From Candidatus Tumulicola sp. (lineage in GTDB: Bacteria > Vulcanimicrobiota > Vulcanimicrobiia > Vulcanimicrobiales > Vulcanimicrobiaceae), in the NCBI GenBank assembly GCA_036490475.1, contig DASXDT010000006.1:1488001-1552000 (forward strand): DNA of 64,000 nucleotides. The letters run 5' to 3'. Both the position numbers and the translations under genes were made by a program. The notes under the pieces were generated by a model, which made no database searches, had not been told where the DNA came from, and saw only the letters and a list, made by a program, of their open reading frames with translations. Shown here piece by piece: positions 1-24,536 of the stretch. The first letter of the stretch is position 1; the number at the start of each line of letters is the position of its first letter.

Positions 1-931
1 GCTGGTTTGATACCGAAGCGATACCGAATGAGGGTGATTTCCAACCTTTATGCCCTCGCTACGAACAGAATCGTATAACGCTCGTGCTCAACCCCAGGCC
101 CGGCTTCGTGGCAGGTTGCACGAAATGACGGTCGTCGCGTACATTCCTAACAGATCAACGGTGTCGCGTGCAATGCAACGTCGATCTATTCAGTTTGCAC
201 CGTCGTCGAGCGTTGTTTGTGCTCAGTTGCATGTTGCATAACATCGATTATATTGCATCGACGCGTTGATGGTATGCTTATCCGTCGTCATCCGAAACGA
301 AACCCGCCATTGTAGATCTGGGTAAGTCAGTTCCGCGGGGTACCCATGTCGTCGGCGCCGCGGTGGGCTCTTCTCAAAATTATAGAAAAAATAGGCCGAT
401 CGAACGCATGTTCAATCTAGCTTAATATAAAAATGTTACCGGGCCCTGACATGTCGGCTCGGGACGAAGATACCGGTCCGGCGAAACGCTCTTCCGCAGG
501 ACGAAGCCTGACTTACCGCCGGGCGCTTCGAAGCGCCAACGACGCTACACTAATGAACGCCCGGCCGGGGTAGTCAAATCCGCTCATCTGGCGTCGAAAC
601 TCCTTCAAGTTTGTACTCGGATCGGAATCGTTCTTTGTCCCATCTGTTGAGGCTCTTCGTACGCGCACGGTATAGCGGCGGACCTTACTTCAAATCGGAA
701 CATCCCACTGGTAGACTTTGAGCGGCGGAATAAAGCCGCCCTGATTTCCAAGCAAAAAGCGTCCGCAGCCGGACCAGCGTCAGTGAAATGAACTCTAAGC
801 TCTCAAGTAACGTAGAGGACCCCCCTGTATAGATCAAAACTGTATTGCGACTCGAGCGAACAACCCAGAGCCCAGCCAACGAACCTACGTGAGGTCATAA
901 CTGTGACAACACCCGGACTCAGGTGCGAGGC
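1..931. other. Stretch without a supported gene
   Basis: I see no convincing gene here. The only short ORFs have unnatural composition and no start context. The first 75 bases are open in frame 1 and could be the 3' end of a gene that starts outside the window, but the roughly 25 residues are not recognisable. Confidence 0.4.
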
Positions 932-1862
932 ATGAAACTCTTCTTTACAGCAGTGGCAGTTTTCCTCACCGTAGGTGCGCTGAACGGCGTTGCTCGCGCA
1001 GATGAGAGCGTCGACGGTAACCAATGCTGGGCAAAGCCGATCTTTGCATTGAATGGCGTACCAAAGCTGCTTTTTGGCAACTCTACAAATGATAAAAACT
1101 TGACCTACCTCGGTGTTAGCTTCACGAACAAGGGAGATCAACCACTAACGGACATCCGAGTGCATTACGTCTTCAGCGACGCCTTCGGAACGCAGGTCGA
1201 TTCTCTTGACGGCGTGTGGTCGGGTTCATTCGCGCCTAATGTCGTTATCAGCTTCATGCCACCGCGTGAGCATGGAGTCTTGGAGGAGCGCCCGTTACAA
1301 AACGCTGACCATGTCAAAGACGTAACGTGCACGATTACCGGGGCTCGTTGGGCTGATGGCACCGTCTTAACGCAGCCGGTCCATATCCAAGACTCTAGCC
1401 CCGGTTCGGAAAGCGGATCATCGACGTCACCGGTGGTTTCGGATTCCCCAGCTGTAGCTGCTGTTTCGCCACCGGTCCAGCCGCTCTCGGGCACGTGCTC
1501 TACCGTCTATGCCGCATATGAAACGCAGAAGGCGCTGGCCGACAGTAATGCTATGAAATGGGAAGCAGCTTTAAACGACGATGATAGGTTGCTGAGCGCT
1601 TGTACCCTGTATAGGAACGCTGCGGCGTTCCGATCACTCTAAAGCCCTCGTCATCATCGCAGATGTCCACTTCCAAGGCGTGTGGTTAGCACGACTTCAC
1701 CGTTGGTCCGAGGCTAGCACGGCGCTTGAAGAAGCGTACGAGGGAGCGGAGGTCGCAATCGCTGACAAGGATATGGACGCAAGCCAACTAAAGCAACTGC
1801 AAACGCTCCTTGAGGATATCAAACAAGAACAGTCGACGACCGCGCCCAATGTCAGGCGTTGA
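932..1862 (+). pseudogene. Secreted protein, frameshifted near its C-terminus
   Basis: The N-terminus is a clear signal peptide (MKLFFTAVAVFLTVGALNG, cleavage probably after ARA). A mature domain follows with FTNKGDQPLTDIRVHYVFSD, reminiscent of an immunoglobulin-like fold, then a Ser/Pro-rich linker. The first frame stops at 1640-1642, but reading continues without a break in another frame from about 1630 to 1862, giving a helical C-terminus (LHRWSEASTALEEAYEGAEV). I infer one ancestral gene with a single-base frameshift near 1630-1640. The helical C-terminus has a decayed second copy at about 2990-3208. I chose ATG 932 over GTG 923 because the signal peptide begins there. No family or function is recognised. 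Confidence 0.6.
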
Positions 1863-1952
1863 GCTTTTGCGAATGCTCTGTAATGTAGCCCGGTTTTTCG
1901 GGTTACCTCCGAGATCGTGCGAAGTTCGAGCGCTTGACGCGCGATCGCCCTG

Positions 1953-2882
1953 TTATCGACCTGGATGTGCCTCAAGCCATTCGGCCAGTGCCCTGTCAAC
2001 ATCACTAAAATCGGTAACGTCGATGGCTCTTCGTGACTCAATCGCCATAATGGCACCATGAAGGTGGGCATCCAACACAGTGAAGTCCATGCGGTTACCC
2101 TGCACTGAATCGACCTGCACGAATGCCATGGCTACTTCTCGGGGGTTTCCTACTCTTTCGAGAGCTGCGTTTATGACGAGGCCAGCATTGGCGTAGATTT
2201 GGATGATGCTTCGTGTCAATTGCAACTGCACGAGACCTAAGCTGTCAAAATATTGGATTAGGTTGGGCTCCAACGCGATATTTGCGTCCAAAAGTTCAAC
2301 CTCTCGCCGTACGCGTGGCTGCATCCGGCGCGCTTCCAAAAAAGCATCGCGGTCGATTGCTAGAGAGAAGTTAATTACTGCCGTGCCTTCAGTGGCTTGG
2401 GCGTCCCACGAGAACGCGCGAACTGGAAGGTCACCGTGCTGAGCCACATTGCGAAGATTCTCAAATAACCGATAAGCGAAGTGGGCATCGTACTGTACAC
2501 CGGTCCATCTCGCAAAACCCGAGCGTACATCGGGACGGTTTGCGAGTCTTTGAGGCATGACGTCAATGTACGTACGGACGCTAGAAAGAAAGTTCATTAA
2601 GTGCCGGTTCACCTCCAAAAGCATCTGATCTATCTGCTGCGATGTATGCAGCGTTCGACGCGCCGAAAGCTCCGCGTTATTTTGATCTAAGTAGCTTCGT
2701 AGAACTTGATAGTTCACTAGAACGACAGCCCATAGCATATGATCGTTTATGAATGTGCGAAGCGACGTCACGGCCGCGCGGACCTCCTCGGCCGTTTCCG
2801 GATCCAAGGGATGATTCAGATCGAAAGTGCCCGGCTCCAGGCGTGTAACGTATAAGGTATGGGTGCTTGGCATCGAGTTCAT
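1953..2882 (-). CDS. HEPN-like protein, putative RNase/defence factor
   Basis: This 309-residue protein has no signal peptide or membrane segment and is rich in helix. Residues 144-149 read RNVAQH, inside the segment LFENLRNVAQHGDLP. That fits the HEPN catalytic signature RNxxxH, and RN..xH followed by GLP/DLP is common in uncharacterised HEPN-like proteins. HEPN domains are typically metal-independent RNases found in toxin-antitoxin and phage-defence loci. The gene stands alone and is convergent with the upstream secreted-protein pseudogene. It lies between that gene's C-terminal module and a decayed duplicate of the same module, which suggests insertion. No partner antitoxin is visible. The existence of the gene is well supported; the HEPN assignment is inference from the motif. 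Confidence 0.7.
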   Translation of the reverse strand: MNSMPSTHTLYVTRLEPGTFDLNHPLDPETAEEVRAAVTSLRTFINDHMLWAVVLVNYQVLRSYLDQNNAELSARRTLHTSQQIDQMLLEVNRHLMNFLSSVRTYIDVMPQRLANRPDVRSGFARWTGVQYDAHFAYRLFENLRNVAQHGDLPVRAFSWDAQATEGTAVINFSLAIDRDAFLEARRMQPRVRREVELLDANIALEPNLIQYFDSLGLVQLQLTRSIIQIYANAGLVINAALERVGNPREVAMAFVQVDSVQGNRMDFTVLDAHLHGAIMAIESRRAIDVTDFSDVDRALAEWLEAHPGR

Positions 2883-2989
2883 TCACATTTCCCCTCTAAC
2901 TAGTTTCTCTGCTACCGCACGCGAAGCCACATGGCGGCATCGAGCGAGTCAGCCGTTCTGCGCGAGGCCCGCTCCTTTCTTAACGGCTT

Positions 2990-3208
2990 TTATTCCCGGC
3001 ACCGAATTATCCCAAAGCGACGTCGGGCCCGTGAAGTTCCAAGTCTCTCCTCATCGTCCTGGGAGAGCTTCATCGCTGGTGAGGCTAGCGTAGCGCTTAG
3101 CGAAGCGTACGGGAAAACACAAATTGCAAATGGTTTACACGAACATGACGGCGACCCAGGAGAAGCAGCTAAAAACGCTCCTTGGCAATATTCAACAAGA
3201 ACAATCTA
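2990..3208 (+). pseudogene. Decayed duplicate of the 932-1862 gene's C-terminal module
   Basis: The DNA from about 3085 (gaggctagcg, agcgaagcgtacg) to 3208 (aaaacgctcc, then caagaacaatc) aligns with 1708-1845 of the upstream gene (gaggctagca, gaagaagcgtacg, aaacgctcct, caagaacagtc). The reading frame is broken, so residues such as EASVALSEAYGKTQIANG appear in one frame only briefly. It is a truncated, non-functional paralogous 3' end. Confidence 0.55.
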
Positions 3209-3500
3209 AGGCAGCGGCCCACGTCACGCAAGAAGTGTGCCAACGTCGGCCACCTTGCTGCACTGATAACCAAGTGAGTAGATCGCTGGCGGTCCGGTAA
3301 GTCTTCACGCCGACTACGCGGGCTTCATGCAAAGTGTGGAACACGTTACCACGTGAAAAGCAGCTTCCCGGAAAAATGCCTCCTCTCCGGGCCGCGTGCG
3401 AGATAATTCGGCTCTAAAGAAGCAGAGGGCCTCACTCTTGACTATTTTGCCAACCCTCGTTCGCGCGGCCCTCGCTTGAGACAAGGAAGAAACGAAACGT
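3209..3500. other. Intergenic stretch
   Basis: I see no gene, RNA or clear hairpin. The stretch separates the decayed module from the LuxR-type pseudogene. Confidence 0.3.
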
Positions 3501-3918
3501 GAAGTAGGCCGGCTGTGCGGTGCTCTCGATGACGAGGGTCAGCAATCCGCCGATGAACTTCGCGAGCTTCTTGACGGAGCCGACGACGAAGCTGCACTAC
3601 GGCGTCTTATCGCTGGCGTACCCGCGGGGGCAAGGCGAAGCGCCCGTCTGGAGGCTGCGCTGGAAGCCTATCGAGGTTCGCAATCCCGACCTAGTGCGCG
3701 CGTCGGCGCCATGCCTTCTTTTGAACGCGCGATCGAGCGATTGCCCCTGTGCAGCGAACAATGCTTTTCATCTGAATCAGGGAAAATCTTACAGCGAGAT
3801 AGCTACGGAACTCAATCGTAGCGTCAGTACGGTCCGCAACCACGTCAAGGTGTTATTGAAGAAATTCGAAGTGCGAAACCGATCCGGGCTGATTGCCAAG
3901 ACGGCCCTTCACCATTGA
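3501..3918 (+). pseudogene. LuxR-family regulator remnant, frameshifted
   Basis: The 3' part (about 3770-3910) encodes a LuxR/GerE helix-turn-helix: LNQGKSYSEIATELNRSVST followed by VRNHVKVLLKKFEVRNRSGL. Both the recognition helix and the 'K.EVRNR' end are well preserved. Upstream, the coding-like sequence is in a different frame (3501-3770), giving helical segments such as ADELRELLDGADDEAALRRL and RLEAALEAY. The two pieces join in 'IERLPL...' just before the HTH, so I infer one regulator broken by a frameshift near 3755-3770. A free-standing HTH protein starting at 3520 is possible but its N-terminus would be nonsense. Start codon not found. Confidence 0.55.
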
Positions 3919-3972
3919 AAGTAGAACGTCCTGATATCGTAGCTCCGCTTCACTCATTGGAGTAAAAACAAA

Positions 3973-4209
3973 ATGGGTCGTAAGTCTCATCAAATGACCG
4001 TCATTCCGCGGGAAGAAGTCGAAGGCGTTGGTACGATTCTTACGCGTACTGGTAAGTCCGACGAGCCCATGGTTGAGGGCAGCGACAACTCGGCACCGAG
4101 CTTGCTTTGCGGGAACTGCCAATCCGTATTGGTTCGCCGGACGGCAGGGCATCAACTCGTCGCCGTGTTCTTCGAGTGTGGTGCCTGCGGATCAATCAAT
4201 CGCCCTTAG
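3973..4209 (+). CDS. Small zinc-ribbon-like protein
   Basis: This 78-residue protein carries two CxxC pairs (CGNC and CGAC) about 23 residues apart, separated by VLVRRTAGHQLVAVFFE. That spacing suggests a rubredoxin/zinc-ribbon knuckle. The N-terminal half is polar and probably disordered. There is no signal peptide. It could bind nucleic acid or act as an adaptor, but I do not recognise a named family. Its size makes the call moderate. Confidence 0.5.
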   Translation: MGRKSHQMTVIPREEVEGVGTILTRTGKSDEPMVEGSDNSAPSLLCGNCQSVLVRRTAGHQLVAVFFECGACGSINRP

Positions 4210-4483
4210 CCAAAGTGAAGGCGAGGCGGGTGTAGCTGCACGCGCGTTCGCAAGTCACCCACCCAGATTGCCGGTTTCGCGAACCCGTTCAGCGATCGGG
4301 TCGTCCAAGATGGGACCATGGCTAAAACCGATGTAGAGAGGTTTCATAATAGAGCGGCGGCACGCCAATGGCTAATGCGGTTTCTTTGAATCTCAACAAC
4401 CGTCACTGGTTACTTTTTCGTTTACCCACCGCACGAGTTGAACTCGAGACGACCCCTGGTACCATGTTGGTCTTCCGCTCGAT

Positions 4484-5248
4484 TCATTCATTTTGCCTAA
4501 AAATGCGTTGCTGGTGCCACGCCAAATACGCGCGATGGGCATCTGTGAGCTCAGATGTGCGCATTACACTTTTGAGCCCAAGTGTGTCTCGAGCAAGCTG
4601 AGAAAGCGCCTCAGAAAATATAACGAGCCCCGCGCCATCTATTGTCATGAAACCGCCGTCAAACAGAGCGTCAAGATGCGGGGCGAGCAAGAAGCCGTTA
4701 AACACATCTAATCGCTCGGCATCGTCAGTACAGTCGGACCACGGTTTGCTGTGGCTTGCGCGAAGGATCTCAACCGTTTCGAGTCCTGTAATTGCGCATC
4801 GCCCTTTCCAATATTCGATTAAGCCCTGGCGGTAGATGCCTTGACCGATACGCAGCACCACAAGTCGTTCGGCCTCCGTGCTTCTAAGCAAGTTTGATGT
4901 CTCTTCCTCAAACCTGTGCAATAGCCCATCCGGTAGCAACAGAGATAGCTGAAATGCACGCCGCACTAGATGGTGCAGCTGCTCAAAATCATTGGTTCGA
5001 ATAGCACCGGACGCTCCCGCTGGAAGCGCTAGGCCGCTCGTGTTCCCGTATTCCGAGAGCTCCTGCTCCACATTAGAGAGCGACAAAGCTGCCGTCGGCC
5101 TAGCGCTATCGCCGATCGACAACCAGATTCGCAAGGGGGTTTTTGTGCTTGCAAATGGCAGCCAACGGTCGAGCGGCACCTCCTCCAGGTCGAAACCGTT
5201 GTCGACTGCGATCTTTCTTAACCGCGTTGCCGCGAGTGGAGGAATCAT
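4484..5248 (-). CDS. HNH endonuclease, last gene of the defence operon
   Basis: The protein has 254 residues. The C-terminal half is an HNH_2-type nuclease: KGRCAITGL with C151, then ASHSKPW with H166, then NGFLLAPHLDALFDGG with N184 and H191. These supply the His-Asn-His metal and catalytic residues of the fold. The first 120 residues form a helical domain of unknown role, possibly for targeting. The gene starts only 7 bases after the methylase stop codon, so it is almost certainly cotranscribed with it. In this context it probably provides DNA cleavage for the helicase-methylase system, as HNH proteins often do beside adenine methylases. That role is inferred from neighbourhood. Confidence 0.88.
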   Translation of the reverse strand: MIPPLAATRLRKIAVDNGFDLEEVPLDRWLPFASTKTPLRIWLSIGDSARPTAALSLSNVEQELSEYGNTSGLALPAGASGAIRTNDFEQLHHLVRRAFQLSLLLPDGLLHRFEEETSNLLRSTEAERLVVLRIGQGIYRQGLIEYWKGRCAITGLETVEILRASHSKPWSDCTDDAERLDVFNGFLLAPHLDALFDGGFMTIDGAGLVIFSEALSQLARDTLGLKSVMRTSELTDAHRAYLAWHQQRIFRQNE

Positions 5249-5255
5249 CGACGTT

Positions 5256-8200
5256 CTACGCTCTCCGAGGGGCCTTGTCGGGGGACGGCAGGGCGTCCCA
5301 AGTCTCGAGGATTAACCGACCAGTGCGAAACTCACCGTACATTTTCTCCTCGTTCCGCCGAAGGGGTCCAAATGTTTCGAAATCGCATTCTGGACCTAGA
5401 ACGGCCGACGGTTCAAGTAGATACAGCATTTCATCTCGGTTTAGCCCGAACACGTCTCGCGCGACGAGCACGTCGAGCTCACTTCGAAGGCGTTCTCGCT
5501 CTGCGAAGTCTTCGCAAGGCTGGTCCAGGTCCGGATCCATTCCGAGCAGTAGCGCAGTGCTCGTCCAGAATGCAGCCATTTCCGCTCCTGTGGCCGTAAG
5601 TTTGAGAGACTTCGCAGCTATTGTTACTTCAAGCGCAGAACTCTCGAACTGCCTCGGAAGCGGAAGACTGTCCATGTAGCTAAAGGTCATATGCAGAGAT
5701 ACTTTCTTTCGCGCCAAATAGTCAACACAGATTGCGTTTGCCACCCCGAGCCAAAGCATAGTCAACCGCGGGTCATTCGGGCTAAACGTGATAGTGGGTA
5801 CGGGCTGACCGCAAACGACGCCTGTCGGGATTAGAGCGGCAACCAGCGTGCGAGCGTTTGTAGGACTTGCCACGTCGCAAAAGCCTAAGCGATATTGATT
5901 ACACCGCTCCGCTATGTCTCTTGGTAGATCGCCGCTTGCTACACGCCATTGAGATTTGATCGACTTTTCATCAGCACCGAAGATCAACTCTTTCCAGTGC
6001 GCGCTTCGAGCGCGCCCAGAGACATATGCCTTGGCCCGGTGATCAAACGCCGCAACCATCCTGCCCTCATACAGCGGGAGTCCGGTTGGATCATTACCAA
6101 ACGACTCCCGATCATTGCCCATATCGAGTTCCCTCGCATAGTCGCGTGCTGCGAGACCACCGCCATCCACCCCGAACTTTGGAAACCTTGCATAGAGCTT
6201 CTGGACGATCGCAACGTCGCTGGGATGCATTATCTCCGTGACAGCTAATGCGTCGGGGCTAGACTCTCGAACCTGATCAAGCGGGTACTTAATCGCACGG
6301 CCAGCTCTCGCGGCTTCCAGCTTTGCTAGAGTGTTTACGCCAAAGGCTGCTAAGAACGTTTCTGCCGCCGGCTCCCGCCGTGCAACGTACATGCAAAACT
6401 TTGTTCTATGGTAGACGGCGGGAAACCAGATATTTCGCGTGTTCTGAAACCCGATCAGCATCAACAAATTGAAGTCGTTGAATAGTGTTGCACGGAGGGC
6501 AGCCGCATTCGCCCCGTTGTAGAGGTTTTCGGGCACTAGCTGTGCCGCGATTCCCTCGGCACGTACGGCGCACAATGCTGTCTCGACGAACATGCGGTAA
6601 ACGTTAAAATCTCCTTTGCCGAGGTTACCTTCAGCAAACATGCTGAATCGTCCACTTTCCTTTATGAACGCAGCCGTATCGTACAGCGTCCGGCAATGTT
6701 CGTCCCAAGCAGATTGCAGACCAGGCGTGAGAAGCAGGTCAGCGATTAGCCGCTCCTGGTCCGCGGGGGCCGCGTCACGTACAGAAGGGTCGAGTGGCGC
6801 AAAAAACTCCTTCGCGTCCGGACTCATCGGCTTCCAAGGTGGGTTTCCCAGGACCAGATGGAATCCGCCACGAGCAAATACGTCCGGGAACATTAGCGGC
6901 CAGTGAAAGAAATTGTGTATGCCGGCCAGTTCGTTGGCGACGGCGACCGCTCCAGCACGTGACTGTTCCCCGATAGCTAGCTTGTCTACATCTGACGTTA
7001 AGGGAACTTGAGACTCCGTCGCCTTCGTCTTTCGAACGAAAAAAGCAGCACAAACGAGGTTCGCCCGCTGACGAGCCGCCACCATCGAGGGCTCGGCCTC
7101 CGCGGCGGCAAGTGCCGTGCGCTTTGCCTTCACTTGTTCGACGGTATCTTCCGGGAGAAGCTCCATAGAATGAGCAGTAGCTGCTGCTGCGAAGAGCGGC
7201 AACGTATTAATGTCTTCGATTCTCTGCTTGTTCCTGAGGCGGAGCGCCTTTGCGACGGCCCTATCATCGCCTTCCCTGGCCTCGAACGCCTCGGCGGGAA
7301 TGCCTCTATCTAACTGGGCTAGGTCAAGAACGCCCAGCAAGGCGTCCCCACAGCGTATATGCGAATCAAGAAATGATAGCGGCCGACCTGGCACGACGGT
7401 CTCGATCCAAAGTGCAGCCTTGCAGAGCTCGACGGCCATCGGATTACGATCTACGCCGTATATGCAGCTTGAGATTACAAGTCGCAGGGCTTCACGATAC
7501 TCTGAAAGTGAGGGTGTCCCGTTTGCGCGGAGACGTGCAACTTGTGAGCCAAGCCGACGAGCGGCGCCGAGTAGGAAGTGCCCGCTTCCGCAAGCAGGGT
7601 CCACTACTGCCAGGCGCAATATGGCTTCTGACGCGTCTGCCGGATGCTTTGCGATTGCGGAGTCTATGATCGGCTCAATCGCCGCATCGAGCAGCGTTTG
7701 GACCAAGTTATCGTGCGTGTAGAAGCTGCTCGAGAGCTTGCGGGCGTTGCCTTTAGCCTCTTTTTTACCTGCGAATTCGAAGCTACGGCCTGCAATTGAA
7801 AGTTGCGGCCGAAGGTCGAGAAGGCTCTCGTAGATGCTCCCGAGCTCTTCTGGGCCCATGTCGCGCCAATTGACGCGGGCAATGCCGCTTTCTTCGCGCA
7901 ACCATCCCAATCGGAAGACGGCCTCGAGCAAAGCCCAGTTCTCTAGCTTTGCGGCATCAAGCGTTTGGCATTGGTCGTCGGCAAAGAGACCACCGAGCGC
8001 TGGTATCGCCAAGCGCGCCTCGCCATGGGCCGCGCCGCGAAAGACAATCTTAAGTGCTTGCCAAAGATCGGTGAACCTGTCACGCGCAGCACGTCGACTT
8101 GAACGCTCTCGAAGAGCTCGTAGGCCGTAGCCTTTGGCGTACAGAGCTTTCGCTGACGTGGAGCAATCTGGGGGATGGAGTAAATCGCGCTCTTCGATTG

Positions 8201-9116
8201 TTAGGAGGAAGATGAGCCTATAAACAAGCCGCAACAACTCCTGGAAGTAAGTTTGCGTCGACAGCGTGCCGTCTTCAAGCGATTGACGAAGCTCGCGATT
8301 GTCGCGGTTCGCAAGGAAAGCCTGGCCCAAGACCACGAGCGCGGCCTCGACACCGTCTCGAAGCTTGTCACGAGCACGAGTACCATCGTCGCGGCCGGCT
8401 ATTCGCCAGGCCTCCAGCCAGGAACCCTCCCGCATCGCTTCCAGCGCACCGAATCGGCTGTCGTGTATGAGCAACCACAGCGGAACGAAGTCGGCAAATC
8501 GCTCTTCCGAAAACAACCGCTCCAGGTCAACTTCAATCCATGTTGGGCGGGTCATGCTAGCATTCTCGCGCAGCAACCGCAATCGTATTCCGTCCGTCGC
8601 CATCCCCCACAAACTGGCGTGCGGACCGTTGAGATACTCCTGGACAAGACCGAAGGCGCTTCGCCGACGCGTGCCATCTCCGAAGCGGCTCGATGGCGTG
8701 TCCAGGCCTTCACTTGCAGCGGCGATCGCAACTGGAACTCGGGCGGCTCCGTAAAACGCGAGGGGATAGTCGTTGCCGTCGACCTCGCCAACGATGGCGT
8801 GCTCTACGCCGCCAAAGCCGAGGACTTCTCGAAGCAGCGCATCTGTGAAACGCTGAGCTAACGTCGCGTGGTTTCCTGTACTAGGAAGGCCCGCTTTAAA
8901 CTCGGCCCAAAGGGCTTGCGACATACGCCAGTATCGCCCGATCTCGTCCCTCAGGTTGAGTCCCTTGGGGATTCGATAATCTGTCTCCGATTGTCCGGAG
9001 GCCTCAAGCAAAGCTATTCTCGAAAGCCACTCCGGCGAGAGTAGTCCACCTTCAATCGAGAGTGCCTCAAAAGCTAGCCGGCTCTGCTTGCGACGGGCGC
9101 GTCTCCCAATTTTCAT
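5256..9116 (-). CDS. Eco57I-class adenine-specific DNA methylase (DrmMI-like)
   Basis: This is a 1,286-residue N6-adenine methyltransferase. The SAM-binding motif I is DPACGSGHFLLGAARR (around residue 505), followed by YGVDRNPMAVELCKAALWIE. The catalytic motif IV is LVLGNPPWKP (around 760). The long N-terminal region (residues 1-480) resembles that of large type IIG/DISARM methylases, and the C-terminal 450 residues probably form the target-recognition domain. Length and architecture match class 1 DISARM DrmMI, though I cannot exclude a BREX PglX or type IIG relative. It overlaps the upstream SNF2 gene by four bases (ATGA), indicating translational coupling. Its expected role is to mark self DNA. 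No PD-(D/E)XK nuclease motif was clear to me; cleavage may come from the HNH partner. Confidence 0.92.
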   Translation of the reverse strand: MKIGRRARRKQSRLAFEALSIEGGLLSPEWLSRIALLEASGQSETDYRIPKGLNLRDEIGRYWRMSQALWAEFKAGLPSTGNHATLAQRFTDALLREVLGFGGVEHAIVGEVDGNDYPLAFYGAARVPVAIAAASEGLDTPSSRFGDGTRRRSAFGLVQEYLNGPHASLWGMATDGIRLRLLRENASMTRPTWIEVDLERLFSEERFADFVPLWLLIHDSRFGALEAMREGSWLEAWRIAGRDDGTRARDKLRDGVEAALVVLGQAFLANRDNRELRQSLEDGTLSTQTYFQELLRLVYRLIFLLTIEERDLLHPPDCSTSAKALYAKGYGLRALRERSSRRAARDRFTDLWQALKIVFRGAAHGEARLAIPALGGLFADDQCQTLDAAKLENWALLEAVFRLGWLREESGIARVNWRDMGPEELGSIYESLLDLRPQLSIAGRSFEFAGKKEAKGNARKLSSSFYTHDNLVQTLLDAAIEPIIDSAIAKHPADASEAILRLAVVDPACGSGHFLLGAARRLGSQVARLRANGTPSLSEYREALRLVISSCIYGVDRNPMAVELCKAALWIETVVPGRPLSFLDSHIRCGDALLGVLDLAQLDRGIPAEAFEAREGDDRAVAKALRLRNKQRIEDINTLPLFAAAATAHSMELLPEDTVEQVKAKRTALAAAEAEPSMVAARQRANLVCAAFFVRKTKATESQVPLTSDVDKLAIGEQSRAGAVAVANELAGIHNFFHWPLMFPDVFARGGFHLVLGNPPWKPMSPDAKEFFAPLDPSVRDAAPADQERLIADLLLTPGLQSAWDEHCRTLYDTAAFIKESGRFSMFAEGNLGKGDFNVYRMFVETALCAVRAEGIAAQLVPENLYNGANAAALRATLFNDFNLLMLIGFQNTRNIWFPAVYHRTKFCMYVARREPAAETFLAAFGVNTLAKLEAARAGRAIKYPLDQVRESSPDALAVTEIMHPSDVAIVQKLYARFPKFGVDGGGLAARDYARELDMGNDRESFGNDPTGLPLYEGRMVAAFDHRAKAYVSGRARSAHWKELIFGADEKSIKSQWRVASGDLPRDIAERCNQYRLGFCDVASPTNARTLVAALIPTGVVCGQPVPTITFSPNDPRLTMLWLGVANAICVDYLARKKVSLHMTFSYMDSLPLPRQFESSALEVTIAAKSLKLTATGAEMAAFWTSTALLLGMDPDLDQPCEDFAERERLRSELDVLVARDVFGLNRDEMLYLLEPSAVLGPECDFETFGPLRRNEEKMYGEFRTGRLILETWDALPSPDKAPRRA

Positions 9117-11890
9117 TGAATGTTCGGTAGCAAGATGTAGACACCGATGATGTCGGGCGGCAAAAGCGACTTGACAGAATAACTTCCGCGCGCTTGTGCA
9201 GCCTCGCGAACACGCCTATGGTCGGACAACAGTTCCTGAGCTCGTCGTTCGGCGAAGGCGTTGATTTCCGCAGCACGACCAGTTAGGGACAACAATGCGC
9301 GGGTGATCTCTCGCTCCTGGACAACAATAGGCGGATCGCCGACCACGGGTAGCGCTAGCAACGACAGAGCGTAATCGGAGTAGCTGAGGCCCTCGTCGGT
9401 CCCCTGCCAAGCAACTGCCGTTGCTTCCTCAACGAGCAAACTACTGGGCCTAAGGCCCGTCGTCGTGAGCTGGTGACGTGCACGTAGCAAGGCTATGACT
9501 GTGCGCGTTGTCACCGGGGCGATCCAGCATCCCGTTCGCCCTAACATCGCCGGATCGGAGCTTTCAAGGTCCGGGCCTGATGCTAGGCTCCGCTCGAGCA
9601 GTGCGTCCGCGAGCACCGCGATGAGCGGATGACTTCGAAGGACCGACATGCAACCCCGCGCGGGATACACGAAGTCCACGCGCAGCGTGCCGGTGAGCCC
9701 TTCCGCCTCCAATCGTTCCTGAATATCCTCCGGAAGTCCGAGCAGCGGGACCTTGTAGCCTCGCTTCATCGATTCTAAACCGGCGCCGAGCCGAGCGAGC
9801 GCGCGACTCGCGAACCGTCTGACGTCGTCATCTCCGCCAATGGCTGTTAGAGTGCGACGCCACTCTGGCATGACATCGTCAGGCCGTAGTCGGCCCTGGG
9901 CGAACACCGTACGATTACGCTTGGCGGTCTCGGCTACGTTCCGCCAGACCAGTTCAATTTCGCGCGCTTCAACTCGATCATAGTCGAAGCTAAATTGTTT
10001 CTGACGACGATCGCCGCGCAACAGGACTGCACGCATTAGTGCTTGTGTAAGTCGATGGCCGTCGTCGGGCAGCGGCACTGAAACGCCGAGCTCGCGCCGG
10101 ATACTCTCCGCTTTGCGAAGGATCACTTTCAAGACGGCTCCGTCGACAGGGTTGTCCTCGCCGTATATCAGGCTCGCCCTGACGGTAGGACTCTCTTGAC
10201 CGAATCGATCGACTCGGCCTTCGCGTTGTTCGTGACGTGTCGGATTCCAAGATAGATCGTAGTGGACAACCGCGTCAAAATATTCTTGGAGATTGACTCC
10301 CTCGGAAAGACAATCAGTGGCCACGAGCAATCGGCGCTCGGCGGTCCCGAGTGCTTCAACACGTAACTCGCGTTCGGCTGATGTGAATTCACCGGTGACG
10401 ACCTCGACGGCGACGCCGGTAAAGCGCCCGTCGAGCTGTCTCTTCAGGTAGTGCGCCGTGGGAATGTAGCGACAAAACACGACCGGGTTGAAGCCTTCAG
10501 CAATCAGGGATTCTAGGTGCGCTGTCAATAGCTTGAGCTTCGGGTCTCCGCCCTGTCCCTTCAGCTGCTCCGCCTGCTTAATGAGCCCACTAAGCAACGG
10601 ATCTGGCATGATTATTGGCGATTGTACGTCGTCGTTTGGTAGAGCGTCAGGTGTACCATCAAAGACTTCGTCTTCAAGTGCTCCCTCGTCAACGGTGACC
10701 TCATTGCTCTGTCGGTTTCGCAATGTTTCTGCCGCCGCAGCCGGACTTGAAGACGCACATCGCATAAGCGCGAGCGTTCCCCAGAAATTCAATCTTCGCC
10801 GATGCTCGTCTGGTGCGCCCCGCTCAACGATTGAGGCGCAATAGTCGAGGACGTTATCGAAGAATGTACGCCACGGTCCGGAAAGACTGTAAGTCAGTTC
10901 GGCGGTTTCACGGCGCGGGAAGAGTCTCCCCTCTTTCCACTCATCAATGTCCGGCCGCCGCCGTTGCACAAAGTGCCGAGAAAGTTTTTCGCGTAATTCC
11001 TGACGTCTATCTTCCCTTGCGCTCGGGAGTTGCTCGAATTCCGGATCTAGTAGGCCCAAGAGGCGATAGAATGCGGCTTCGTCTCCACTGTGCGGAGTCG
11101 CCGTCAGCATCACTAGGTGTCGGTCGATAGACTTCGAGAGTTCGCGAAGCAACTCGTAGCGCTGGTGTCTGCCCTTGCCGACCGCAGCACAAGTGTGGGC
11201 TTCATCTACAATAACGAACTCGGGACAGGCGCGAAGGAATTCGCCTCTCCGTTTGTCGCTCTTAATGTAGTCGAGGCTCACGACTGTAAACGAGTGCGCC
11301 TCGAAAATGCCTTCGGTCGGCGGAAGATCGCGCTCTAACCGCGCCGCGCTTGCCGCCGTAACGGGGAGGGCACGAATATGGAATGCTCGCTCCAGTTCTT
11401 CTACCCACTGCTCAACGAGATGTGGTGGACACAGCACTGCTATGCGCGAGATCTCGCCACGATCAAGTAGCTCCCTTGCGATGAGTCCAGCTTCGATTGT
11501 CTTACCGACTCCGACGTCATCAGCGATTAGTAGCCGTACTGTTTCAAGCTTCAACGCCATTAGCAATGGGACGAGCTGGTATGCGCGCGGTTCTATCGAC
11601 AGATGCCCAAAGCTGCGAAACGGCCCAGCGCCGCGACGCAACGATAACAGCAAAGCGTCCCGCAACAACATCGCCGCGTCGTGGCTGGCTTTCTGCGTTG
11701 CAACCGGCGCCGGAAACGTTGCGGGCAGCACCGGATCGAGCTCAAGCGGAAGGTAGATGACCGTCTCATCTGCTCCGGAGCCCGACAGCGGGCGCACGCG
11801 AAGCACGTCAGCATCATGCTCGAGCGTGATCCACTCACGACCTCGCGCACGGACGAGGGTGCCGGGTGCAAATCGTTCGAGAGCCTTCAT
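9113..11890 (-). CDS. SNF2-family helicase, DISARM DrmD-like
   Basis: This 925-residue superfamily 2 ATPase has all main motifs: Walker A region ADDVGVGKTIEAGLIAREL (around residue 125), VIVDEAHTC (DEAH box, near 230), MLTATPHSGDE (motif III), and in the C-terminal RecA domain ATDCLSEGVNLQ and HEQREGRVDRFGQ (motif VI, near 560). The DVGVGKT Walker A and helicase-C layout are typical of the SNF2-like DrmD/RapA group. The last 300 residues lack a known domain. The ATG overlaps the TAA stop of the large helicase by one base (TAATG), and its own end overlaps the methylase. It probably translocates on DNA for the defence complex. Confidence 0.92.
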   Translation of the reverse strand: MKALERFAPGTLVRARGREWITLEHDADVLRVRPLSGSGADETVIYLPLELDPVLPATFPAPVATQKASHDAAMLLRDALLLSLRRGAGPFRSFGHLSIEPRAYQLVPLLMALKLETVRLLIADDVGVGKTIEAGLIARELLDRGEISRIAVLCPPHLVEQWVEELERAFHIRALPVTAASAARLERDLPPTEGIFEAHSFTVVSLDYIKSDKRRGEFLRACPEFVIVDEAHTCAAVGKGRHQRYELLRELSKSIDRHLVMLTATPHSGDEAAFYRLLGLLDPEFEQLPSAREDRRQELREKLSRHFVQRRRPDIDEWKEGRLFPRRETAELTYSLSGPWRTFFDNVLDYCASIVERGAPDEHRRRLNFWGTLALMRCASSSPAAAAETLRNRQSNEVTVDEGALEDEVFDGTPDALPNDDVQSPIIMPDPLLSGLIKQAEQLKGQGGDPKLKLLTAHLESLIAEGFNPVVFCRYIPTAHYLKRQLDGRFTGVAVEVVTGEFTSAERELRVEALGTAERRLLVATDCLSEGVNLQEYFDAVVHYDLSWNPTRHEQREGRVDRFGQESPTVRASLIYGEDNPVDGAVLKVILRKAESIRRELGVSVPLPDDGHRLTQALMRAVLLRGDRRQKQFSFDYDRVEAREIELVWRNVAETAKRNRTVFAQGRLRPDDVMPEWRRTLTAIGGDDDVRRFASRALARLGAGLESMKRGYKVPLLGLPEDIQERLEAEGLTGTLRVDFVYPARGCMSVLRSHPLIAVLADALLERSLASGPDLESSDPAMLGRTGCWIAPVTTRTVIALLRARHQLTTTGLRPSSLLVEEATAVAWQGTDEGLSYSDYALSLLALPVVGDPPIVVQEREITRALLSLTGRAAEINAFAERRAQELLSDHRRVREAAQARGSYSVKSLLPPDIIGVYILLPNIQ

Positions 11891-14800
11891 TACAACTCGA
11901 GCGCCGATTCCAAGCGACTAAAAGCGATTGGCCACTCAGCCTCGTCCTCGCCGAACGCTACAATCAGAAAGCCTTGATCTTGAAGGGCGACTGCGAGCGT
12001 GGTCGAGACCTGACTCAATAATGCGACTACGTAGTGCGAGCGCCACACTAGTTCCACGCCCTCTCCGCCAATTTCCAACGGTTCCGAGTCAGGAGAGGGC
12101 AAAGAGCGCGGTGTAACTAGTTCAAACCAGCGCTGCGAACGCGTGTTCATTTCAGCATCGCTTGGAGATTTCGCGTTCTGTGGCAAAGCGGCTCCGGTTC
12201 TAGCAAGAAGTGGCGATGTTGTTGATGCGGCTAATCGAAGAAGTATCTCCTTTGCTCCATCGTCCCGGCGATCAATAACCTCGTGGTCCGGTTGATTGTA
12301 ATATGAAAGAAGACACCTGTAACAACCCGCTACGCATTGGGTCGCCTGGGCAGTTTTAAGTTCGTTGCTGCTTGGCAGAATTTCGCCATCTTCTGGCAAT
12401 AAGTAGTGCATGATGCGCAGAGCCGCCCGTGCGATCTGGCGGAACGCTGCACCGTCCATTACGAGTCTCGTAAGGACGCCGGCTCCCCCTTCGCTGGCTT
12501 CATACAAAAGGAACCCAGTACGTGCCTCGCGGTCAGGAATCGGTTCGGCGAGAAGCTCACCCTCCTCCAACTGGAAAAGTGATTCGATTCCTCGCAGCAA
12601 CGCATGCTGTACGGTCGCGAGCGTGGTTTGGGAAGCGTCTTCCTCGGCTGGCAAGATCAAAAGCGCGTTCTTCTGATCCTGGACGCTCGGCACTATCCAT
12701 TGCCGCGGCGTAGTGCTAGGGTCGTCTGGATCCGCATTGTCATCTTTGTTACGAGCCCAATATCCGGACACGGGATCGATCTTGAACCCGAGTTGCGTGC
12801 GATTGGCGCGTCGCCGCAGGCCCTTGTTAAGCCTGGTGATTGTCGCTCCTGGTCCATAAGACAGGCGCATGATCACGCCTTTATCGTCTAGCGATTCCGC
12901 GCGCCGAACGTCCAGACGGCGGTCGCGTTCAGCCCATTGAAACGTCGTCTGCAAATCAAAACCCTGGCGTTGTCGCTCCTCATCATTTGCAGTAATTCGC
13001 TCGGCGGGCTGCGTCGCGACATTTTCGATTCTATAAGCGTCACGAATAATCTCGGCGTCATCGAGTGATCTTCCGCAGCCACGGCACGTTGAAGCATTCT
13101 CATCGAAGTGGCCAGCTCCGCAAACGCAACAGATGCGAATCGACCTCGTTGGCAGTCGGTACTCCGCCGTTGCTCCGTCCCGGATGCCCAATGACAGCAT
13201 AGCGCGAGTGACGCGGTACGCTCTGCCCTCATGGTACACGAGACTACGAGGACCAAACTCTGATAGCGCGAGGAATCGTGGGCGTTGAAGATAGCGTCCA
13301 TGCCCTTCGGTCGCGGCGGGGATGTACGCCATCAGCGGCAACCTTGGGAAGTTATAGCCCGGAAGGAAGCCTTCTGTCGCAAGATAGCGGTATGTGTAAA
13401 AATCGCTCGAAAAGCTGCTGCTACCCTTTTGCAACAAATCGAGTTGGTCGAGCGCCTGGTCGTGACGGCTTTTTGCTGCGCGTTTTTCTCGGGGAGGGGT
13501 CGCGTAGTCATCCATCGTTCGTCGTGCCGCATCGCGTTGTTCTTCTGCCGCAGCGAAGAGGTCGCGCCAGCGGTCGAACGCGGCCTTGAATCGGTCAAGC
13601 GCCTTCTCTACAGTCTCGCTCGCATACGCGTCGCGCCCAGAGTACCAGTCCGAGGTTTCCTGGTTCAGATCATCGGAGAGCATTTCGAGCACATTTGCAA
13701 TCCGTTGCAAAGCTTCGGCTGCGACGTTCGCTGAGGCCATGGAGCGCAGAAGATCCGTGCGAACCGGTCTGCTGGATTCGCTGAGGTCGAGCAGTTCAGA
13801 GATTGACGGGTCGAGTGGTATCTCGGTGCTCGCAAGCCAGATAGCGTGCAGGTGGCTGTCCACTAGCTCACGATTTGCAAGGTCTAAGAGTGGCGGGCGC
13901 ACTTCGCCATGCACCATAGCACGTGGGTTTCGGAAGAAGTACTGATCATGCGGGCTCTGCGCCGAGCTGTACGTTATGACAAGTGCAGGCTGGCCACTCC
14001 GGCCTGCGCGACCGCTACGCTGAGCATAGTTCGCCGGCGTGGGGGGTACGTTTCTTAGATAGACTGCATTTAGTGCCGATATATCGACGCCAAGCTCCAT
14101 CGTCGGCGAACAGAAGAGGACCGGAAGAAAACGTTTGGCCTCTCCCAAAGCGCGAAGTGCCTGGTCGTCGTGATTTAGTTCCTGACGCTCCTTATCGCCA
14201 AACTTAAAACGCTTCTCGCGAACCTCTCGCTTGTCTTGATCCACCTGAGCGGTATGCTCGCGGGCCTCGAAGCTGAACAGAGCATGGTCTGGTCGCCGTA
14301 ACATATGCGCCACGGCAATATAAAAATTCCTGAAAAACACGTTTTCCCGTGTGGATGTAGTATCGGAAAGCGCCGACGCGTAGAATCGAACGCAACCATC
14401 ATTTAATTTCCAGCCGTCTCTCTCAAACGGGGTTGGCTCCTCTGTGATTAAGCCGTGCCTTACTGCGGCGCGCAGCAAAGCCTCCAATATCTCGTCGTAC
14501 TGTTTAGTGTCAATGCTTCGGGTAGCGTTCGAGTTTCCCCAAAGGCTAGGCCGCTTCAGCTCACGGCCCAGCGAGCTGCGTGCTCCACCGCGCACAATCA
14601 TATCCTCATCGCGAAGATTGTTTTCACGGCGAGTTGGTGCTTTTATGAAGAGCCACCGTGACGGTCTGGGCTTTTCGTCGAGGCTGAAACCCCACGGCGA
14701 ACGAAGACGGCTATGCGATCGCGAAAGCAGTTGCTCGGTAGCGGTCGATTCGAGAACCGAGCTCCGAATTGCCATCCCTCTTCGCATAAAGTCCAGCAGC

Positions 14801-17199
14801 GTTCTATAGACGTCGCGACGCACTCCCACCGGCGCGTCACGCAGAAGGGCTGGCGCCTCACGAAACAGCTCGTCGTCAGACGCTAAGTCATCGATGCCTA
14901 GATACTCCACGCGTACAAGATTAAGTTGTTCTAGATTTGGGTTTGTGTATCGCCATCCGCGACGCTGATCGAACCAGCTTCTGTATGCGAGAACATCGCG
15001 AAGCGTTCTTTCAGCTTCCTGTAAGTTAAAGCCCCGCAGATCTGGCTCGAGTAACCACTCGGCACGCATGTTTGCATCGACTTGATCAAAACCGAGAGCG
15101 TGCTGTTGAGCTGCTCCAAGCTGCTCGCTTCCGACACCCGCGCCACCCGCGTCCTGAAGGGCAGCTAGAAATCCCGCACGCACTAGACTTACAAAGAGGA
15201 AGTCATTAAAGTGCCCCGCCTGTAGGGCGGCATCCTGACGGTTATCGGTGAAGCCGAGCAGCTTTCGTTTCGACAGCTCTAGATCGGAATGCGGACCGTT
15301 CATCCATCGGAGAGTCGATCCAACGAGTACAGTTGTTGCTGAGCTTCTACCCTCTGCCGTTAGAGACGCGAGGCGAGTGCGGTCCCGCGATGAACCTTGA
15401 TACGTTGTCTTGCAGCGCAAGCAAAGGCGAAACTTTCCGGGAAGAAACCACGCCTTATGACCAATCCCAACTTTCCCGGTTGGTTCTACGTGCAACGAAA
15501 CCGGACGCGCGTTCCGATAGCTCGGCTTTAAACGCGGTTTGCCCGCGCTATTGGTATCAATCCACAATTCGGGGTAATCTTCCCCATCGATACGATCGTT
15601 GAACGTGAAGTCCGAATCATCTGGATTCAACATCAGAAAGCCGAAGCGCTCGTGGTCATCCTCTGTAGATGGATCGCTGTCGTCCGGGGCGTCATCGTCA
15701 GGTATGGCGCCGTCGTCGATATCGCGAGCTAAAATAGACTGCCCTTGGATATCGGCTAAGAGCCGAACTGGATGATATTCCTGGCCACACTCTCGGCAAA
15801 AGTGCACGGTGTAAAGTCTCTTGTCCTCGGCGCCTGGAAGAAATTGTTGGCCGTCAACGGTAATGGTTCGCTGCCCAGCAGGCTCAAGAGTAGCGAAGCA
15901 GCTCCCTGCGCCCGAGATAAACTGATGCAGTTTGAAAGCAAAGAATCCACGGCTGCTTGCGTGAATGTCATCGCAGCGCACCGCTTCCGGGATGCTTGAG
16001 AGTAGCAATAGATTGCGCAGCGCGAAGCGACAAGCGTCCTCGGCGCGATCTGCGTCGACGCTCAAACTCTTAACCGCATCGCTAACGGTCAAAGGTTCCG
16101 CGCGTAGCCAGCGCTGATCCGTTTCGGACCACTTGACGCCAAGTGTCGTCTCTACCCATATCACTAGCGGGTGCACCCGCAGGGCAGCATTGGTAATCGA
16201 AGACTCGATCCCGCTATCAATCGCGACGCCAAGTGCCGCTCGCACATTCTCAGCAGTCTGCGCTGGATCCGTGACGCGCTCGAGAGTCTCTGCAATGACG
16301 TGAGCTTCGCTTATGTGCGTGGCAAAAAGCTTGGAGGCAACGGACGCGACTAACCTGTTTTTATCCTCTAGCGATCCCTCACTGGCCATGGTTGCCGAGG
16401 TACCGATGCATTGAAGGGCAGTCGGCTTTAATCGATCCCGAACGCGACGAACCAAAAGCGCGACATCTGCACCTTGCCGCCCCCGATATGTATGCAACTC
16501 GTCTAGTACCAGGAAGCGAAGTCCCGCGCAGTTTCCAATGACTCGTCGATCGACATCCTCCTGACGTGTCATGAGGAGCTCGAGCATCATGAAATTGGTT
16601 AGTAGGATGTCTGGAGGATTGAGCGCAATCTGCTGGCGCTCTTCGGCCGATTCCTGACCCGTATACCGGGCATATGTGATCGGTCCTGGGTTGCCTGCGT
16701 TGCCAAGATATTTGTCGAGCTCTTCCTTTTGACTATTTGCCAGCGCGTTCATCGGATAGACCACGATGGCGCGAGTCCTAGGAGTCGCGTCGCGTTCTTT
16801 CTCTCGTAGTACCGCGTCGATAATGGGAATAAAGAAGCAGAGCGACTTTCCAGAACCCGTTCCTGTCGTCACGACGAAACTGTCGTCTTTCACCGCGATC
16901 GCTTGTTCCTGATGAAGGAACAACGGCAGTGACTCCCCTTCCGGGTGGTCTTCGGAGGGCGGCGTGCGGAAGATTACCTCGCACTTTGGATGTACTGCGC
17001 CGAAACGCACAAGGTCTGCGACTGTATTTCCCCGTCGGTAATTCGGATTGATCTGAATCAGCGGTTCGGGCCAAAACCGACCGCTATCGTAGATAGCCTG
17101 AATTCGCGATCGAATGTCAGGAGCATGGACAAATGTAAATGATGTCGCGAACTGGCGGTATTCGTCTACGATTGTATCGCGTAGGTCAAAAACGTCCAT
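11890..17199 (-). CDS. Giant DEAD/DEAH helicase with DUF1998 C-terminus (DruE/DrmA-DrmB-like)
   Basis: From ATG 17199 the protein is about 1,769 residues and begins MDVFDLRDTIVDEY. The open frame runs up to 17529, but the extra 110 residues have a non-protein-like composition. Motifs in order: VTTGTGSGKSLCFFIPIID (Walker A, near residue 112), YPMNALANSQ, VLDELHTYRGRQGADVALL (DExH), GTSATMAS, a zinc pair FCRECGQEYH, LFCSPTMELGVDISALNAVY and YAQRSGRAGRSGQ (helicase C-terminal domain), a four-cysteine cluster ICCVCGAGHFDENAS/CRGCGR, and a DUF1998 region LLYEASEGGAGVLTRL with CVAGCYRCLLSYYNQPDH. Helicase plus DUF1998 in one giant chain is the hallmark of Druantia DruE; in DISARM the same parts are split into DrmA and DrmB. 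First gene of a four-gene operon. Confidence 0.9.
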   Translation of the reverse strand: MDVFDLRDTIVDEYRQFATSFTFVHAPDIRSRIQAIYDSGRFWPEPLIQINPNYRRGNTVADLVRFGAVHPKCEVIFRTPPSEDHPEGESLPLFLHQEQAIAVKDDSFVVTTGTGSGKSLCFFIPIIDAVLREKERDATPRTRAIVVYPMNALANSQKEELDKYLGNAGNPGPITYARYTGQESAEERQQIALNPPDILLTNFMMLELLMTRQEDVDRRVIGNCAGLRFLVLDELHTYRGRQGADVALLVRRVRDRLKPTALQCIGTSATMASEGSLEDKNRLVASVASKLFATHISEAHVIAETLERVTDPAQTAENVRAALGVAIDSGIESSITNAALRVHPLVIWVETTLGVKWSETDQRWLRAEPLTVSDAVKSLSVDADRAEDACRFALRNLLLLSSIPEAVRCDDIHASSRGFFAFKLHQFISGAGSCFATLEPAGQRTITVDGQQFLPGAEDKRLYTVHFCRECGQEYHPVRLLADIQGQSILARDIDDGAIPDDDAPDDSDPSTEDDHERFGFLMLNPDDSDFTFNDRIDGEDYPELWIDTNSAGKPRLKPSYRNARPVSLHVEPTGKVGIGHKAWFLPGKFRLCLRCKTTYQGSSRDRTRLASLTAEGRSSATTVLVGSTLRWMNGPHSDLELSKRKLLGFTDNRQDAALQAGHFNDFLFVSLVRAGFLAALQDAGGAGVGSEQLGAAQQHALGFDQVDANMRAEWLLEPDLRGFNLQEAERTLRDVLAYRSWFDQRRGWRYTNPNLEQLNLVRVEYLGIDDLASDDELFREAPALLRDAPVGVRRDVYRTLLDFMRRGMAIRSSVLESTATEQLLSRSHSRLRSPWGFSLDEKPRPSRWLFIKAPTRRENNLRDEDMIVRGGARSSLGRELKRPSLWGNSNATRSIDTKQYDEILEALLRAAVRHGLITEEPTPFERDGWKLNDGCVRFYASALSDTTSTRENVFFRNFYIAVAHMLRRPDHALFSFEAREHTAQVDQDKREVREKRFKFGDKERQELNHDDQALRALGEAKRFLPVLFCSPTMELGVDISALNAVYLRNVPPTPANYAQRSGRAGRSGQPALVITYSSAQSPHDQYFFRNPRAMVHGEVRPPLLDLANRELVDSHLHAIWLASTEIPLDPSISELLDLSESSRPVRTDLLRSMASANVAAEALQRIANVLEMLSDDLNQETSDWYSGRDAYASETVEKALDRFKAAFDRWRDLFAAAEEQRDAARRTMDDYATPPREKRAAKSRHDQALDQLDLLQKGSSSFSSDFYTYRYLATEGFLPGYNFPRLPLMAYIPAATEGHGRYLQRPRFLALSEFGPRSLVYHEGRAYRVTRAMLSLGIRDGATAEYRLPTRSIRICCVCGAGHFDENASTCRGCGRSLDDAEIIRDAYRIENVATQPAERITANDEERQRQGFDLQTTFQWAERDRRLDVRRAESLDDKGVIMRLSYGPGATITRLNKGLRRRANRTQLGFKIDPVSGYWARNKDDNADPDDPSTTPRQWIVPSVQDQKNALLILPAEEDASQTTLATVQHALLRGIESLFQLEEGELLAEPIPDREARTGFLLYEASEGGAGVLTRLVMDGAAFRQIARAALRIMHYLLPEDGEILPSSNELKTAQATQCVAGCYRCLLSYYNQPDHEVIDRRDDGAKEILLRLAASTTSPLLARTGAALPQNAKSPSDAEMNTRSQRWFELVTPRSLPSPDSEPLEIGGEGVELVWRSHYVVALLSQVSTTLAVALQDQGFLIVAFGEDEAEWPIAFSRLESALEL

Positions 17200-23300: not shown

Positions 23301-24536
23301 ATGAACAACAACGGCAAACCAAACCTCACCGTGATAGTGGGAAGCGGCTTTTCGCAAAGCGTCGGACTGCCTTCGACCGACGCGTTGACCAACACGATCC
23401 GGGACACGCTAGGTCCGCCCTTGGACGACAGCAGATATGGATGGGTTCCTTGGATACATAAAGAGCCGCTGACGTTCGCTCAAGCAATGGGGCGCTTCGC
23501 TTCGAGCTACTATTCCCGACCCAACTTTGAAACGATCCTTCATTTAGCAGAGGCAGGACTGGCTTATTCTGCAACGCGATACTGGATCCAAGTTCGAGAC
23601 CAAGCGAAGCCAGCATATGGGGCGTTTACCATTCCCAATCCGCAGTGGGCAGACTTCTTACAGGAAGCACAGCAAACCGATCTTTTGGATTTTATCAACA
23701 CTTCGGTTGACCTGATTGCCAAGACGTTGGCCGAGGCTGTTAAGACAATCGAGGATGCGCGACTCGCTAGTTTGCGACGCATAATCGATTTGCTCTCTAA
23801 ACATTTCAATGTTACTTTTGCGACTCTCAACTACGACGAGCTTTTGGAGCGTTGCGTCGACGAGTGGGTTGACGGCTACGAGGACGACGGACGCCACTTC
23901 AACCCGAACTTACTTATGCGAGCAACCGACAGTCCGTTTATCCTGCATCTTCACGGTAGTGTCCGGTTTTACTTCCTGCGCACCAATGAACACACCCGGG
24001 AACAGATTTGTCGCGCACCGACCTGGACTTTTGATGGCATTCAGAACGCAACGCGATGGGTTATAGGGCCCGCTACCGCGCAGTCAGGGGAAGCTCTGAC
24101 AGTTGGAACCATGATAACCGGTCTTAGAAAAACAGATAAGGTGTTGCACCCGCCATACGGATATTTTCAATATAAGTTGCAGGATGCCCTTATGAAGTCA
24201 CCACGCCTTCTCGTACTTGGATACGGCGGAAGCGACCTGTATCTAAACGGGCTAATCACGGAAATGCGAAGAATCCACGGGGATAACATTCGGTCAGCAT
24301 TTATTGTGCAACACGAGATCGATACGCCGGCGACTAACGCGGAGTATGCTCCAGCGATATTTTCTGGATTCAACGATCGCCCCGGCGTCGAAGGATTCTT
24401 GAGAGCTATAGACATTGCGAGCGCGGCCGGCAGCCCATACATTGAGCCCAGCTCCAAATGCGCTGTATTCTCGTGTGGGATTCCCCTGACCGGAAACGCC
24501 TTTGATACGATCGTCGATCACCTACGCGAGGCCTAG
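23301..24536 (+). CDS. SIR2-like domain protein, putative NAD-consuming defence effector
   Basis: The protein has 411 residues. The N-terminus VIVGSGFSQSVGLPST (11-26) is the dinucleotide-binding loop of SIR2-like proteins. ATLNYDELLE (175-184, with N177) and HLHGS (216-220, with H218) carry the conserved Asn and His of the NAD-cleaving site. LLVLGYGGSDLYLNGLI closes the Rossmann-like domain. There is no zinc cluster, as expected for bacterial SIR2-like defence proteins rather than deacetylases. Known relatives (such as ThsA and DSR proteins) deplete NAD on phage infection. The stop TAG is followed at once by the ATG of a membrane protein, so the two form a tight gene pair. Specific function is inferred. 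Confidence 0.85.
   Translation: MNNNGKPNLTVIVGSGFSQSVGLPSTDALTNTIRDTLGPPLDDSRYGWVPWIHKEPLTFAQAMGRFASSYYSRPNFETILHLAEAGLAYSATRYWIQVRDQAKPAYGAFTIPNPQWADFLQEAQQTDLLDFINTSVDLIAKTLAEAVKTIEDARLASLRRIIDLLSKHFNVTFATLNYDELLERCVDEWVDGYEDDGRHFNPNLLMRATDSPFILHLHGSVRFYFLRTNEHTREQICRAPTWTFDGIQNATRWVIGPATAQSGEALTVGTMITGLRKTDKVLHPPYGYFQYKLQDALMKSPRLLVLGYGGSDLYLNGLITEMRRIHGDNIRSAFIVQHEIDTPATNAEYAPAIFSGFNDRPGVEGFLRAIDIASAAGSPYIEPSSKCAVFSCGIPLTGNAFDTIVDHLREA

Follow-up and report, generated by a model that had tools for sequence, protein, structure and literature searches.

ARMADA systems, described in the preprint of Bell et al. 2025 (PMC12458937), combine a YprA-like helicase most similar to that of Druantia with two proteins common with DISARM class 1, and have been presented as a "missing link" between DISARM and Druantia. 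In Type I, the usual gene order is YprA, BrxHII-like and PglX-like, with a predicted active Vsr-type nuclease at the C-terminus of the helicase, while the Type II system of E. coli, which was tested with phages, provides a direct, non-abortive defence for which all four genes are required (PMC12458937). Here, we analysed a 64,000-nucleotide stretch of a Candidatus Tumulicola genome (contig DASXDT010000006.1, hereafter the window), which carries a four-gene operon encoding a YprA/DruE-like helicase, an SNF2 helicase, an adenine methylase and an HNH endonuclease (Table 1). Judging from the gene content and order in the sequence, this operon belongs to ARMADA Type I, but it has to be filed as a variant rather than as a typical member, because the predicted active Vsr characteristic of Type I is absent from its helicase, and an HNH gene is present. 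We consider it fairly probable that the operon is an anti-phage system representing a distinct subtype of ARMADA Type I, in which the nuclease, fused to the helicase elsewhere, would now be a protein of its own. The Type I gene set and order are already known, whereas the HNH gene and the dead Vsr are new relative to the main text of the ARMADA paper, in which the HNH gene is unmentioned (the string HNH occurs only in one reference title); moreover, we found no report of an HNH-bearing ARMADA in the open-access literature.

The four open reading frames (ORFs) are consecutive and co-directional, and direct reading of the sequence bears out the junctions given in a preliminary description of this DNA: a 1-base overlap (TAATG) between the helicase and SNF2 genes, a 4-base overlap (ATGA) between the SNF2 and methylase genes, and 7 bases between the TAG of the methylase gene and the ATG of the HNH gene. 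The components listed there (a roughly 1,769-residue helicase of the DUF1998 type, an SNF2 helicase, an Eco57I-class methylase and an HNH protein) were recovered from ORFs, motifs and Pfam alike. Briefly, the helicase has a Walker A motif (GTGSGKS), a DELH motif and five CxxC, and matches DEAD, Helicase_C and MZB (MrfA Zn-binding, above cut-off); the SNF2 protein has DVGVGKT, DEAH and QREGRVDR (SNF2-rel_dom); the methylase has DPACGSGHF and NPPW (Eco57I); and the fourth protein has RASH...NG...D..FD (HNH_2). Although the helicase ORF is open from 17529 (1879 amino acids, aa), homolog alignments begin at about residue 111, which supports the start at 17199, and 66 of the 83 homologs have a start at most 10 residues from that residue. 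Since these four large overlapping ORFs match known families, and their order recurs in dozens of genomes, the operon is not a chance arrangement.

Table 1. Genes of the operon and their domains in the window.
Feature	Position	Strand	Basis
YprA/DruE-like DEAD-box helicase with fused OB-CON-DUF1998 (MZB) region, ARMADA YprA homolog, 1769 aa	11890..17199	-	ORF, profiles, homolog alignment
Vestigial C-terminal Vsr/DUF559-type domain of the helicase	11893..12177	-	Homology with the active domain; no DFxY or FxDGPHH catalytic segment
SNF2/RapA-like helicase, BrxHII/DrmD/DpdE-like, 925 aa	9113..11890	-	ORF, profiles
Eco57I-class adenine methylase, PglX/DrmMI-like, 1286 aa	5256..9116	-	ORF, profiles
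HNH endonuclease, 254 aa, operon gene 4	4484..5248	-	ORF, HNH_2, homologs
VcaM4I-type HNH catalytic domain, residues 119-253, H166/N184/D193/D197	4490..4894	-	Profile and structure comparison
Residues 1-115 of the HNH protein (N-terminal domain), with a proposed role in docking or regulation	4904..5248	-	Largely restricted to ARMADA-associated homologs; no Pfam EVE

With ARMADA Type I the operon shares a YprA-like helicase with a fused DUF1998/MZB region closest to DruE, followed by a BrxHII/RapA-like helicase and then by a PglX-like methylase. It also shares the conserved zinc-binding cysteine pairs and the single zinc-binding insert after RecA2, as read from cysteine positions and not from folds: the cysteines relevant to the beta-barrel CxxC and to the canopy insert (C578/581/703/706 and C1467/1470/1482/1485) are kept in 99% of the 83 homologs. 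It differs in its seemingly dead Vsr and in the HNH endonuclease gene downstream. ARMADA Type II has the same two helicases and methylase, but its gene order is reversed and its fourth gene is RelE-GajB-like instead of an HNH nuclease. Druantia Type III (DruH-DruE) has a giant DruE-type helicase with a fused DUF1998 too, whereas our operon features neither DruH nor C-terminal PLD nuclease domains and includes SNF2 and methylase genes. DISARM class 1 has the DrmD-like SNF2 helicase and the DrmMI-like methylase in common with it, but here DrmA and DrmB are not separate (a single fused protein stands in their place) and there is no DrmC PLD nuclease. Finally, unlike Dpd, the operon has no 7-deazaguanine synthesis gene, even though its SNF2 protein best matches a DpdE profile.

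The profile libraries reflect this mixed resemblance. In PADLOC, the top-scoring profiles for the helicase were those of DruE (up to 297 bits, partial), ahead of DpdJ and DrmA; the SNF2 protein matched DpdE best (full length, 591 bits) but also DrmD and BrxH, the methylase matched DrmMI, and the fourth protein HNH families. The thresholds that NCBIfam sets for proteins of DISARM and of Dpd were not reached. Profile PDLC02853 (labelled DpdE) spans the whole ARMADA SNF2 protein, so that automatic annotation may wrongly report Dpd. The preliminary description, which had proposed such profile searches, was right in that no standard Druantia or DISARM subtype fits, but the gene set already had a name, ARMADA Type I; it had also asked whether the gene order recurs, and this order is widespread in other genomes. 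As for its claim that an HNH replaces the nuclease, the HNH is present and DrmC is absent, but the part replaced would be the helicase-fused Vsr rather than the DrmC of DISARM.

Indeed, the C-termini of the related helicases fall into two classes, those with both the DFxY and F-x-DGPHH motifs and those, including the window helicase, without either of them; in the alignment, the window-type C-termini are gapped at the GPHH position. Pfam DUF559 matches the active tails, whereas the dead tails match nothing, yet the two are homologous (hhalign probability 98.5%, E-value (E) 2.4e-14, zinc region excluded). With its catalytic segments missing, the Vsr domain of the window helicase thus appears catalytically dead. 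Among close pairs, the ratio of nonsynonymous to synonymous substitution rates (dN/dS) is 0.13-0.55 for the dead domain; the remainder of the protein lies at 0.04-0.11, and active domains lie at 0.12-0.13. Selection on the dead domain is thus relaxed, but the domain is still constrained (below neutral).

The HNH protein was modelled with a mean predicted local distance difference test score (pLDDT) of 95.9. Its C-terminal domain matches that of VcaM4I (profile E 1.9e-37; Foldseek E 3.6e-9, on the model), an EVE-HNH modification-dependent endonuclease (PDB 6yex) with active-site residues H224, N241, D250 and D254 (PMC7897488). Their counterparts, H166, N184, D193 and D197, are invariant in 33 homologs. 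By contrast, the N-terminal EVE reader of VcaM4I is replaced here by an unrelated-looking domain, and the gene lies within a helicase operon: the N-terminal domain has no Pfam match to EVE and no EVE-like structure match of its own, and a structure search with it returned only a weak likeness to the MotA DNA-binding domain (E 0.42), which we did not use. Because the free HNH domain of VcaM4I is toxic and restrained by a linker helix (PMC7897488), a regulated HNH is, by analogy, plausible in our operon. We also considered a nuclease in the N-terminal part of the methylase, but this candidate was ruled out, as no PD-(D/E)xK ExK signature was found in any homolog inspected; consequently, the HNH is the sole recognisable intact nuclease centre of the operon.

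To situate the operon, we relied on a set of 101 related loci, made of a genome scan (80 loci), plasmid loci and the window. An HNH gene lies downstream of the methylase gene in about half of them: in 13 loci, among them the window, it directly adjoins the methylase gene, and in the remainder other genes stand between the two. Counted across roughly 435 kb to either side, HNH genes were found 49 times downstream and never upstream, which rules out a generic HNH as a chance neighbour. Moreover, the HNH and SNF2 distance matrices are correlated (r = 0.82, the highest of 2000 permutations being 0.10), which shows a lasting association, though not contact, and to which shared ancestry contributes. 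A first count, limited to loci with room downstream, gave an HNH in 36 of the 39 loci with a dead Vsr, as against 6 of the 15 with an active one (Fisher p = 1.4e-4, uncorrected for relatedness), and the fuller set of loci with a scorable HNH status gave 43/48 vs. 6/21. In the SNF2 tree, rooted on distant ARMADA I members, a single clade of 65 dead-Vsr rows (support 85) includes 44 rows with an HNH, 4 without and 17 unscored; a 10-row active-Vsr clade has an HNH in none of its four scorable rows, a 12-row active-Vsr clade has one in 6 of 10, and the active outgroups are devoid of it. Beside this 12-row clade stands the dead-Vsr row of Hydrogenimonas, for which reading across the plasmid origin, where the first stretch ended, revealed, a few genes downstream, a member of the same HNH family (188 bits).

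The converse search points the same way. When 195 and 297 genomes were searched with an HNH profile, ARMADA genes adjoined nearly all full-length matches (L140 being one of the exceptions), and each of the 12 ARMADA helicases with a readable C-terminus had a dead Vsr; nine of these helicases came from loci outside the earlier set. Likewise, the best full-length HNH matches on plasmids are nearly all on ARMADA plasmids; one exception is Paracoccus versutus, where a full-length homolog (L105:14684-15517) has no ARMADA gene in the approximately 14 kb upstream of it.

Taken at sequence level, these patterns suggest that the HNH most likely does the cutting in place of the dead Vsr. From its class, the methylase would mark host DNA as self. 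By comparison with ARMADA II, DISARM and Druantia III, the YprA and SNF2 helicases would be loaded onto phage DNA that lacks the mark, probably in single-stranded or replicating form, and translocate along it. At this point, the fused Vsr would cut in canonical ARMADA, while here the helicases would instead activate the HNH protein to cut the DNA; more speculatively, the dead Vsr remnant, kept under selection, may serve as a docking surface. A wider version of this scheme, which we put forward tentatively, would be a widespread subtype (ARMADA I-HNH) in which the ancestral fused Vsr was displaced by a trans-acting HNH; this HNH would become active only once the translocating helicases have engaged foreign DNA, and the dead Vsr, put to a new use, would be its docking platform. 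If this holds true, the nuclease modules of the DISARM-ARMADA-Druantia superfamily would be exchangeable between fused and free-standing forms, the role of the nuclease-dead ARMADA helicase would be explained, and there would exist a form of the system whose cutting step could be disabled through one residue of a small separate protein. For annotation, the HNH would provide both a marker and a subtype; in current profile libraries, such loci are spread over Druantia, Dpd and DISARM.

Several observations weigh against this interpretation. First, the Vsr was lost on few branches only (the 65-row clade, Hydrogenimonas and two single rows), and an independent-pairs test of Vsr vs. HNH could use only two pairs (p = 1), these few independent losses leaving it without power. 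Second, the HNH co-occurs with an intact Vsr in six loci, for which reason it was probably gained before the Vsr was lost. Third, five dead-Vsr loci (L063, L072, L086, L094 and L097) have no HNH in the stretch of sequence covered; L072 has a truncated HNH-like match at the end of its stretch and L094 an IS21 insertion, and in the others a downstream HNH may be out of range. The Streptomyces locus (L097), whose Vsr motif is degenerate (FVDLSDHG) and which has no HNH within 5 kb downstream, is a possible counter-example. Fourth, a structure search with the C-terminal remnant yielded nothing significant (the best nuclease-like match, 3hrl, being weak, with an E of 1.4), which leaves the Vsr-like fold unconfirmed. 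Finally, DISARM has been reported to work without its own nuclease (PMC9142583).

This last report keeps alive the idea that defence proceeds mainly without cutting, the helicases blocking phage DNA, the HNH being a dispensable accessory and the Vsr having been lost as cutting was not needed. The five dead-Vsr loci lacking an HNH in the stretch covered would fit such a scenario, but the invariance of the HNH active site and the retention of the gene in the great majority of dead-Vsr loci argue that HNH catalysis is selected, and we regard the scenario as unlikely. We give no better chance to an independent, Type IV-like HNH endonuclease that would merely reside in an ARMADA operon and, like VcaM4I, cut DNA with modified bases, thereby covering evading phages without any handover from the helicases. 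VcaM4I is indeed the closest solved HNH, and McrBC-type genes do follow the methylase in some ARMADA loci (L010, L096, L098/L104); yet the N-terminal part yielded no EVE or other known modification-reader domain, full-length members of the family occur almost exclusively in ARMADA loci and diverge in step with the SNF2 helicase, and such an enzyme would not predict the link with a dead Vsr. As to a recent recombination between Druantia and DISARM, the hybrid of the preliminary description, the resemblance to both is real (DruE models for the helicase, DrmD/DpdE and DrmMI for the two other proteins), but a coherent family with a published gene order, found in many bacterial phyla and already described as ARMADA, makes it very improbable.

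With respect to its hosts, the gene set recurs across many bacterial phyla and in one haloarchaeon, and the HNH gene likewise accompanies it in many phyla of bacteria. On plasmids, tblastn yielded 68 with the SNF2 protein and 75 with the helicase; a scan of viral contigs with the SNF2 protein returned no relative. The SNF2 gene is unique to the window's own genome among the 117 genomes scanned from its class. In the phylum, where 149 genomes were searched, no genome other than the window's own carries the HNH gene, which suggests horizontal acquisition.

A few other features of these loci deserve mention. The HNH gene is often separated from the ARMADA methylase gene by one for an SMC-like protein of about 660 aa (26 related loci, e.g., L004:16276-18258 and L091:25862-27844); this protein occurs with either Vsr state, is absent from the window and goes unnamed in the main text of the ARMADA paper. 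In Chlorohelix, where the Vsr looks dead, the methylase is followed by an EVE-AAA protein and a DUF2357-PDDEXK protein. Decay is visible in Deinococcus radiodurans (L096; split methylase beside an IS630 element), Acinetobacter soli (L006; fragmented helicase) and Kozakia (L094; IS21 inserted after the methylase). Within the window, no helicase-sized ORF occurs at 1-4484, and 11 promoter-like sites were counted vs. 5.7 expected, from which no interpretation was drawn. Finally, a SIR2-like protein (23301-24536, plus strand; PF13289, E 4.7e-11), which PADLOC SIR2 models match weakly, is encoded about 6 kb from the operon and is possibly the product of a second defence gene.
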